A stretch of DNA of 40,366 nt from a virus. Where the stretch lies: IMG/VR virus record IMGVR_UViG_3300047547_000103, positions 1 through 40,366 of that record; one strand, given 5' to 3'. The number at the start of each line of letters is the position of its first letter. Position 1 is the stretch's first letter. A program made the position numbers and the translations under genes. Below, piece after piece: positions 36,451 to 39,405 of the stretch. A model generated the notes under the pieces. It did no database searches, was not told the origin of the DNA, and worked only from the letters and a program-made list of their open reading frames with translations.

Positions 36451-37353
36451 TTAGCCGCCAGTCAGGTCGGCGATTTTCGCTAGGGCCTTTGGAGCACGCA
36501 CAGCCAAAGAGCAATCGGCTGTCACCAGCACGCGCTCGCTGTCGCCGGTCACGCCCAATTGCTCGGTTCGGAAGCCGTCCAAATACGCCATCTCTACATA
36601 TTCGGAGTTAATGAGGTGAACGTCAGTAGAACCGGCCATCAGGTAGTGAGGCACGATCTCCAACTCGCCGAAGTCGGACATGTACACGTCAGCACCGCCC
36701 ACAATGCGGCCCTGCTCTTTTTTGCCCACTTGGTAGCGGTTGACCGCAATACCGGCAAAGCCAGAGAAAACGCCTTTGTGGTTGGGGCTCATGATGACCA
36801 TGCGGGGCACTTCGCCGCTGTTGATGTACGCGGACTGAACCACGGTTTTCAGCAGGGCTTCGGTGAACGCACGGCCCGTGCCAGCGGTCGGGGCCGTGGT
36901 AGGCGCGCCAGAGGTCCAGGCAGCAGTAGAGCCACCAGCACCGTGGGAGGTGTTGGCACCGTTCTGCACGCCCAGGCCACCGAACTTGCCAGCCACCGAA
37001 GTGGTAGGCGCAACGGCAGCGTTGGTGGACACCACAGCGGCCTCGATGTCGCGCTTGATCTCCAGCATGGCTTTGGCCTTGATGTAGGCCATTTCAGAGC
37101 CACGGCCGGCCTTCTTCACGATGTTGGCACGGCGAGAAACACCGGGCTTTTTCGAGAAGATTTGCATGTAGTTGCCCACGCGCTCGGTCGCGGTTTGCGC
37201 GTCCAAAGTCACATCGTCGCCGTCGATCAGCGCGTTGTCTTTGTTGGCGGTTGCCAAGGCGTCGCGCTGCCACTCGTGGAAAGTGTTGGTCGCAGTCACG
37301 CGGCCAATCGCCGACAGCACCGGGGTTTCGGTGGGCGACGTGTTGTAGATTTT
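36451..37353 (-). CDS. Major capsid protein, exon 2 (DUF5309/SU10-type)
   Basis: Exon 2 encodes residues 23-322 of the spliced capsid protein. It opens with KIYNTSPTETPVLSAIGRV, then TATNTFHEWQRDALATANKD. This, with NYMQIFSKKPGVSR, KAGRGSEMAYIKAKAMLEIK and a C-terminal QLGVTGDSERVLVTADCSLA, matches DUF5309 (SU10-type HK97-fold) major capsid proteins. Those begin MAVPTN...REDLTD...IYN.SPTETP. The first in-frame start codon (GTG at 37320) falls inside this conserved block, so it is not the true start. Splicing to 38353-38418 gives 322 aa, the family length. Confidence 0.93.
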   Translation of the reverse strand, partial: KIYNTSPTETPVLSAIGRVTATNTFHEWQRDALATANKDNALIDGDDVTLDAQTATERVGNYMQIFSKKPGVSRRANIVKKAGRGSEMAYIKAKAMLEIKRDIEAAVVSTNAAVAPTTSVAGKFGGLGVQNGANTSHGAGGSTAAWTSGAPTTAPTAGTGRAFTEALLKTVVQSAYINSGEVPRMVIMSPNHKGVFSGFAGIAVNRYQVGKKEQGRIVGGADVYMSDFGELEIVPHYLMAGSTDVHLINSEYVEMAYLDGFRTEQLGVTGDSERVLVTADCSLAVRAPKALAKIADLTGG

Positions 37354-38352
37354 CAGTCGTGTTATCGGTAGGCTCTTTATCCTACCTTCTGTAAGTTTCC
37401 CTACAGCTCAGACTATATCATCGCTTTCGCGTCGGGCGCTCTTGGAGGTTTCGACCGGTCTGGCCTACTCCCTCTAGTCGTTGAACCTTCACCACATTCC
37501 TGTGGCGCTTGGCTGCTGATTGCCCAATCCTCTGTCTTTTCAAACCTTCGCGCTTACCGTTGCCAGTTACGCTGTGGTGTCAGAGGCTCTAAGGGGTTTC
37601 CAGCAATTCACCCAATTTTCATTCTATGCCTGGAATGGTGGCATTTAGGGCAAAGGACTTCACTGTTTTCAACATCAAAGCGTTCATCTGTATATTTCGC
37701 AAATGAACGGAGATGGTGAACATGCAGCATAACTTTAGTGCCGCAGCACTCGCAAACAGAACCACCGACTGCGCCACATTCTTGGCACTTGTGGCCAGCG
37801 CGTTGGAGCGCGGCCCTTTTCCAGTCTCTGTATTCAACGGTTGATCTGGCCAGAAAATTCTTGGCTGTCAATCCGCCTTTCCAGTTTGGGTTCTTTTCAC
37901 CACGGGCATCCCTGTTTTTGTGTGCAGCACTCAAATTGAGTCGATGTGTTTCTGAAAACACACGCCCAGGCTTGAGACGATGGTTCACATGCTCTTTCAG
38001 CACAATACCATGCTCTTTCAACCGCTTGAACACCACCGTCTCACCAACGCCAAATTGCTTTGCAATATCAGCCATTGACATGGCCTGGTAAAGCTCGTGC
38101 AGTTGTTCTTTTGGCGGATCAAACGTCTTGAGAGGCCGTGCAGGTCTGCGCGGTATCCCATGTTTGATTAGCGCCAATCGAACTGGCTCGGCTGTGATGT
38201 TAAACATTTGTGCTATCTGGCTGCATGAATTCGTCTGATACAGGTTCTCTAAATCTTCCCGTGACTTTGCAAAAGTTTTCCAGTCCATTGCCCGCCCTTT
38301 CCAAACTTAGACGGGACTATTGTCGCACATCTATATGATGTGCGCTACGTCA
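37354..38352 (-). ncRNA. Group I self-splicing intron in the major capsid gene
   Basis: This is a 999-nt intron with the four core elements in order on the minus strand. P is GAATTGCTGGAAACCCCTTA (37609 down to about 37585). Q is CAATCAGCAGCC (about 37522-37511). R is GGTTCAACGACTAGAGGG (37487-37470). S is GATGATATAGTCTGAGC (37422-37406), so that GACUA of R pairs with UAGUC of S (P7). A P2-like hairpin CGCACATC/GATGTGCG lies at 38324-38344, and P9-like stems GGTAGG/CCTACC lie near the 3' end. The exon ends in U and the intron ends in G (37354). It is related to IA-type phage introns. P1 could not be resolved. Confidence 0.93.
37608..38288 (-). CDS. HNH homing endonuclease encoded in the intron
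   Basis: This encodes 226 aa. Two N-terminal helix-turn-helix segments (residues 8-45 SREDLENLYQTNSCSQIAQM; 60-95 KEQLHELYQAMSMADIAKQF) are followed by a NUMOD3-like motif (FSETHRLNLSAAHKNRDARG, EKNPNWKGG). The HNH nuclease carries CQECG, CECCG, HVHHLRSF and LCPKCHHSRHR. The order of DNA-recognition modules before the nuclease is that of phage intron enzymes. Its stop codon TGA is the start of the P element, so coding and ribozyme sequences abut exactly. It should cut intronless capsid alleles and spread the intron. Confidence 0.93.
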   Translation of the reverse strand: MDWKTFAKSREDLENLYQTNSCSQIAQMFNITAEPVRLALIKHGIPRRPARPLKTFDPPKEQLHELYQAMSMADIAKQFGVGETVVFKRLKEHGIVLKEHVNHRLKPGRVFSETHRLNLSAAHKNRDARGEKNPNWKGGLTAKNFLARSTVEYRDWKRAALQRAGHKCQECGAVGGSVCECCGTKVMLHVHHLRSFAKYTDERFDVENSEVLCPKCHHSRHRMKIG

Positions 38353-38418
38353 ATCCGTGAGGTCCTCGCGGTCACCCTTGAGGGAAGCTTTTTGGTAAAG
38401 GTTGGTTGGAACTGCCAT
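38353..38418 (-). CDS. Major capsid protein, exon 1
   Basis: The ATG at 38418 has a good ribosome site (CTGGAG about 10 nt upstream). The 22 codons read MAVPTNLYQKASLKGDREDL TD and are followed in frame by TGA, the first three bases of the intron. The last exon base is U (GAT), as required for a group I 5' splice site. Joined to exon 2, the reading frame continues TD-KIYN, exactly at the place where the family has REDLTD-x-IYN. Confidence 0.93.
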
Positions 38419-38436: not shown

Positions 38437-39405
38437 TTACATGAGGTAGGAAGCAAGGTCGTTCAGCTTGGCGCGGCCACCTTGGAAGCGCTTTTCCAGC
38501 TGCACGTTCTTGCGTGTTTGTGGGGTCGGGTTTGCTTTGCTGGGCAGCTTGGGCGCTTGCTCCACCTTCTGCTTGACCGCGGGTTTCTGCGCTTGCAGTT
38601 CACGGTAAGCGGCAGCGTCTCGCATCAGCCGCACGAGGCGGTGGTCGAATACGTTGCCCAATTCCTCTTTCGAGAAACCGTAGGTTTTGGAAACATCGCC
38701 GTACACCTTCGCCAGCTTGTCACGGTCTATGCCATCCTTTTGCAGTTCGCTCCAGGCTTGCTGAAAGGCTTGCGCCTTCCACTGCTGGGCGGCCTGCTCT
38801 TGACGCTGCGCGATAGCTTTTCGCTCAGTGTCAATTTGCTGATCCATCTGGTTCAGCACGGCATAAATGGATTGCTGACGCTGGTTTTCTGCCACCCATG
38901 CAGCGGGGTCGGTCTGGGCCAGTTGGGCCATTTCCGCCTCGTTGCGCAGGCCTGCCAGTTGCACAATCGCGGCCCGTGTGGACTCGGCTTTTTGCACATA
39001 CTGACCGGCAAATTCGTCGTACTTGGTGCGCAGTTGCTCAACCGCTTGATGCTCGCGCTGCGAAAGCTCCTGCGTCTTGCGGGTGTAGTCCGCCTGGCGT
39101 TGGTAGCCCTTCACTAGCTCGGTTTCATCAACCTCAAGCTCCTGCTCGGTGCCGTCGTCACCCTTTACAGTGACTTTTAGTTTCCGTTCGGGTGCAGGCG
39201 TGTCATCGGCTTCTTCCTCCTCGGATTCGTCATCCTCAGATTCTTCCTGTCCGTCGGTTTCCTCGGAATCCGTGTCGCCCTCGGCGGTGGTTTCGTCGGT
39301 ATCGGCTTCGTCCTGGTCGTTGGATTCCTCGTCGGGAGTGTCCACCAGAAACGCGGCCAAATCGCTCAGGGAGTCGGGTGCATTTTCAGCGTGTCCTACG
39401 TCCAT
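38437..39405 (-). CDS. Scaffolding protein
   Basis: This encodes 322 aa. Residues 20-75 are extremely acidic (EESNDQDEADTDETTAEGDT, EESEDDESEEEEADD). Residues about 85-110 hold a small beta unit (KLKVTVKGDDGTEQELEVDE) followed by long helices (115-280) rich in Gln and Glu. The C-terminus is basic (LEKRFQGGRAKLNDLASYLM). This acidic-helical-basic layout is typical of podovirus scaffolds, which bind the capsid protein with their basic end. The gene directly precedes the capsid gene. Confidence 0.87.
   Translation of the reverse strand: MDVGHAENAPDSLSDLAAFLVDTPDEESNDQDEADTDETTAEGDTDSEETDGQEESEDDESEEEEADDTPAPERKLKVTVKGDDGTEQELEVDETELVKGYQRQADYTRKTQELSQREHQAVEQLRTKYDEFAGQYVQKAESTRAAIVQLAGLRNEAEMAQLAQTDPAAWVAENQRQQSIYAVLNQMDQQIDTERKAIAQRQEQAAQQWKAQAFQQAWSELQKDGIDRDKLAKVYGDVSKTYGFSKEELGNVFDHRLVRLMRDAAAYRELQAQKPAVKQKVEQAPKLPSKANPTPQTRKNVQLEKRFQGGRAKLNDLASYLM

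Follow-up and report, generated by a model that had tools for sequence, protein, structure and literature searches.

The window analysed here is the whole 40,366-nucleotide IMG/VR record IMGVR_UViG_3300047547_000103, a podovirus-like record of about 40 kb with portal, terminase, ejection-protein and tailspike genes. Its SU10-type major capsid gene is interrupted after codon 22 (Table 1). The first exon, read from the ATG at 38418, encodes MAVPTNLYQKASLKGDREDLTD and runs immediately into an in-frame TGA; from 37353 (K IYN TSPTETP) the frame is open again and ends at 36451 (all on the minus strand). Joining 38418–38353 to 37353–36451 yields a stop-free frame of 322 residues, with a T before the insert and an insert ending in ACTG. 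The original prediction had placed 22 missing N-terminal codons 999 nt upstream of exon 2, with a U closing the 5′ exon and a G closing the intron; re-reading recovered the codons and the in-frame junction, and both bases are present. The in-frame join does lie in the block that had been named, REDLTD/IYN, although the exact reading is REDLTD-K-IYN, with a lysine that had been omitted.

Table 1. Features of the interrupted capsid locus (window positions).
Feature	Position	Strand	Remarks
Head scaffolding protein gene	38437..39405	−	Directly upstream of the capsid gene; phrog_3927, 2.5e-37
Major capsid gene exon 1	38353..38418	−	22 codons, MAVPTNLYQKASLKGDREDLTD; ATG, GGAG upstream; aligned with intronless alleles
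Group I intron	37354..38352	−	999 nt; starts with TGA (in-frame stop), last base G
Proposed internal guide UAGUCC	38314..38319	−	P1 with GGAU/UG (exon end and intron start); U–G wobble at the splice site
HNH homing endonuclease ORF	37608..38288	−	226 aa; two helical (HTH-like) units predicted at the N-terminus, HNH at the C-terminus
Group I core	37389..37680	−	RF00028; most conserved part 37619–37389
Major capsid gene exon 2	36451..37353	−	300 codons and stop

The Rfam search proposed with the original prediction was carried out. Infernal aligned the insert with the whole Rfam group I intron model RF00028 (positions 1–253 of 253; 76.9 bits, above the gathering threshold of 50; E = 5.6e-18), which is the sole Rfam match in the window. 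The spliced capsid protein scored 270 bits against SU10_MCP (PF17236), up from 239 bits for the ORF starting at the GTG at 37320; its residues 11–320 cover profile positions 5–292 of 292 (3e-80), and residues 1–321 match phrog_1328, a major head protein. We also compared the window with 80 IMG/VR contigs carrying related capsid genes. The five closest relatives (L002–L006, 89–92% identical) are alleles with an empty site and correspond to the joined exons: they read REDLTDKIYN (REDLTDKIYNTSPTETP at the junction) and align without gaps across REDLTD/KIYN. Intronless homologues (L002–L020) begin at residue 1 and continue uninterrupted over the junction. The last codons of exon 1, CTCACGGAT before AAA in the window, correspond to TTGACCGAC before AAG in the intronless alleles. 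RF00028 had no match in the 23 contigs with related capsids that were examined, including those of the nearest capsid relatives of the window. A scan of bacterial genomes returned only four capsid relatives, each uninterrupted within the match, the nearest being from Variovorax and Burkholderiaceae. We looked in the flanking exon for the footprint of co-conversion but rejected it, as the mismatch density was unconvincing compared with the whole gene (best p 0.013, in one of five chosen windows). The re-reading, the gain in profile score, the RF00028 match and the gapless intronless relatives thus confirm the interrupted gene at 36451–38418 to the base.

We read the intron as type IA from an extra insert after P7. 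At the 5′ splice site, GGAT/TG can pair with TAGTCC, and this pairing recurs among relatives with an intron at the same site. The guide AGTCC lies close to the 5′ end in 16 of the 17 introns at this site (chance 0.11 per intron), these 17 introns being related, so that the occurrences are not independent. Exon and guide have changed together in L128 (GGAGGAT and AGTCCTC) and in L140 (GACGGAT and AGTCCGTC); the AGTCC guide is absent from L084 and L085. P1 length was discarded as a statistic, since it falls within the chance range of mononucleotide shuffles, whereas the conserved AGTCC guide exceeds chance. Inspection by eye revealed no P10 pairing.

That the insert is a group I intron had been correctly predicted, but the HNH endonuclease ORF that it encloses had been overlooked. 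The endonuclease matches PF01844 with 25.5 bits (cut-off 21.4) and phrog_8446 at 5e-28, and six endonuclease sequences have in common invariant Cys pairs and conserved LHVHH, N208 and CPKCH motifs. Its AlphaFold model (mean pLDDT 73) has two units of three helices each in its N-terminal portion and an HNH-like part at the C-terminus. A fold search with this model was weak, the best match being the HNH endonuclease of phage GVE2 (E 0.02), and a PDB profile search gave no match. The stop codon of the endonuclease (TGA, 37610–37608) falls within ribozyme helix P3; the last codons and the core therefore limit each other.

Endonucleases 55–59% identical to that of the window were found in eight viral contigs (L082–L089), all within introns at the same capsid codon, between the scaffold gene and capsid exon 2. 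In these contigs REDL[TS]D is followed by an immediate stop, the exon ends in CGGAT and the intron, in contigs that include its 3′ end, in G. Same-site SU10 capsid introns in IMG/VR (L082–L089 and L118–L157) have the insertion codon, guide and core of the window intron; several share its endonuclease family, and many, with the same core, carry no endonuclease. The endonuclease-bearing relatives differ from the window in their capsid proteins: in the five that were compared, the capsid exons are only 37–41% identical to those of the window, compared with 55–58% for the endonucleases and 71–78% for the cores. Since the identity of endonuclease and core exceeds that of the capsid exons, the intron appears to have moved independently of its capsid gene. 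The two histories are incongruent, because divergent capsids share the intron and the nearest capsid relatives of the window have no RF00028 match. Together, these comparisons point to horizontal movement of the intron among distant phages.

From its sequence, the interruption that follows codon 22 of this SU10-type major capsid gene is almost certainly due to a mobile group I intron with an HNH homing endonuclease, for which we infer splicing, cleavage and homing. A ribosome on the capsid pre-mRNA would read 22 codons and halt at the first codon of the intron, leaving the ribozyme free to fold; an in-frame stop is usually placed right behind the 5′ splice site and shields the ribozyme from ribosomes (PMC3073962). 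The guide UAGUCC would pair with the exon end GGAU, guanosine attack would occur after the U of the exon end, and the freed exon would then attack behind the last base of the intron, G 37354. Once ligated, the mRNA, with the junction GACCTCACGGAT/AAAATCTAC, would encode the 322-residue capsid protein. In capsid alleles without the intron, the endonuclease would cleave at REDLTD/xIY, with the intron copy as the template for repair of the break. It is very unlikely that the intron is instead a decayed copy that has lost splicing or mobility: the endonuclease may be inactive, but the core matches RF00028 end to end, the intact 226-residue frame keeps the Cys/His and HNH residues common to five relatives, and failure to splice the capsid gene should be lethal to the phage. 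We give virtually no credence to a capsid protein starting at GTG 37320 behind an inserted, unrelated stretch whose endonuclease is free-standing, with no splicing: the long ORF from this codon exists and still matches SU10_MCP, but capsid relatives begin at a MAVPTN-like residue 1 and contain REDLTD, joining the exons raises the SU10_MCP score, the insert contains a full ribozyme core, the exons join in frame, a U closes the 5′ exon and a G the intron, and introns recur at the same site. The original prediction of a true start upstream of this GTG is likewise supported by the RF00028 match, the intronless alleles and the same-site relatives.

Phage capsid introns are already known, with one published for mycobacteriophage LittleE and one annotated in Bacillus phage SP-15. 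The probably mobile intron of the window adds one more, and it is the capsid-focused lineage described below that is of interest. For LittleE, a 2013 paper demonstrated splicing of the intron both by RT-PCR and by N-terminal sequencing, and its authors also cite a capsid intron in lactococcal Tuc2009 (PMC3706429). Like the window, LittleE has an intron in its major capsid gene with a U at the exon end, a G at the intron end and an endonuclease ORF inside; unlike the window, its capsid is of the HK97 type, the ORF is LAGLIDADG-like and on the opposite strand, and the intron, about 820 bp long, is of a type that the authors call unclear, most likely group I (PMC3706429). In SP-15 (KT624200, 23787–28922; L380), the annotation joins the capsid gene SP15_032 around the endonuclease SP15_033. 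The core is 72% identical to that of the window over about 136 nt and the two-piece capsid gene with an endonuclease inside is the same, but the capsid is of the gp23 type, the phage has 222 kb and the nuclease is of the Phage_endo_I type. The T4 td and SPO1 DNA polymerase introns (I-TevI and I-HmuI) resemble the window intron in their self-splicing core (splicing being predicted for the window), early in-frame stop and ORF overlapping the core, but their hosts are nucleotide-metabolism or replication genes, and their ORFs lie in P6 or P8 rather than between P1/P2 and P3 (PMC2988022, PMC3073962). Splicing in a capsid gene is also reported for the giant virus Faustovirus (PMC6247863). In the open-access literature we found no report of a phage group I intron lineage hosted mainly by capsid genes.

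A 25-base core pattern retrieved 42 IMG/VR contigs, three of them already among the contigs with endonuclease relatives, and the SU10 capsid gene is split in 35 of the 42. The insertion points lie at profile positions of about 22–26 (the site of the window), 33, 58, 114–119, 126–128, 247–250 (at least two nearby points) and 298, so that related group I introns occupy at least seven positions of the SU10 capsid gene. L124, L145 and L152 each have two introns within one gene. Introns were seen near residue 116 in L122, L125, L133 and L214, near residue 248 in L130 and L192, and near residue 298 in L231 and L239. In L118 and L127, further apparent breaks were not counted as insertion sites: the pieces overlap or almost touch, so that frameshifts are likely. 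A broader core pattern gave at least 103 dereplicated introns in IMG/VR, of which, among the matches listed, 20 adjoin SU10 and 31 adjoin P22-type capsid genes (51/103). In the P22-type genes, introns of the same core follow the N-terminal region, and in many of these genes the N-terminal exon can be read upstream. The interruption (L159–L248, at least 31 dereplicated introns) reads M[AS]NSLLTIDMIT...ALEILE/DDSFAVEGAKIG. A generic core with a different P7 (L260–L379) gave at least 91 dereplicated introns, with 81 testable downstream ORFs in 33 groups. Among the matches listed, 54 of the 81 are capsid genes, two are terminase genes, one is a DNA polymerase gene and one is psbA, the remainder being mostly endonucleases or unknown. 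The capsid groups are T7-like, SU10, T4 gp23 and phrog_3437, 247, 9953, 1357, 1005 and 334, with upstream capsid exons readable in several families. These counts (54/81 and 51/103, among the matches listed), together with LittleE and SP-15, contradict the part of the original prediction that held capsid introns to be far rarer than those in polymerase, terminase or nucleotide-metabolism genes.

We may wonder whether this capsid bias is an artefact of the collection, as IMG/VR contigs are chosen as viral and the retention of contigs with hallmark genes would over-sample capsid-borne introns. Many contigs are indeed short in both capsid-rich samples, each of at least 120 rows. Terminase, however, is also a hallmark gene and hosts two introns compared with 54 for capsid genes among the matches listed (p 4e-14 against equal odds). 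Moreover, a third core type (P7 GTGTAGAGACTA; L386–L434), taken from IMG/VR and handled in the same way, gave 40 ORFs, of which one was a major head protein among the matches listed (Fisher p 8e-13), these being the 25 commonest families, so that a rare capsid match could be missed. Its contigs are mostly larger, and the type of phage thus remains a confounder. The introns with the GTGTAGAGACTA P7 have ribonucleotide reductase, virion structural, tape measure and polymerase genes as hosts. Since the third core type, scanned alike, gives 1/40, collection bias alone is insufficient, and we consider it an unlikely explanation; the capsid preference would therefore depend on the type of intron or on the phages in which it occurs. 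We lean towards an intron lineage with a GTTCA-type P7 that is specialized on phage major capsid genes, with at least eight capsid families (some of the PHROG families counted being remotely related to one another), at least seven SU10 positions and sometimes two introns per gene. In uncultured phages it would live chiefly in capsid genes; this reading, which we consider somewhat the more probable, would be at odds with the textbook view from cultured phages.

Automatic annotation of the window gene loses the true capsid start and calls an extra ORF. If the capsid mRNA of many uncultured phages does pass through a ribozyme, capsid gene calls, capsid trees and metagenome marker searches would often be wrong. 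The efficiency of splicing would then limit virion yield, the capsid protein being the most abundant late protein, and capsid genes would be a route for mobile introns between distant phages.
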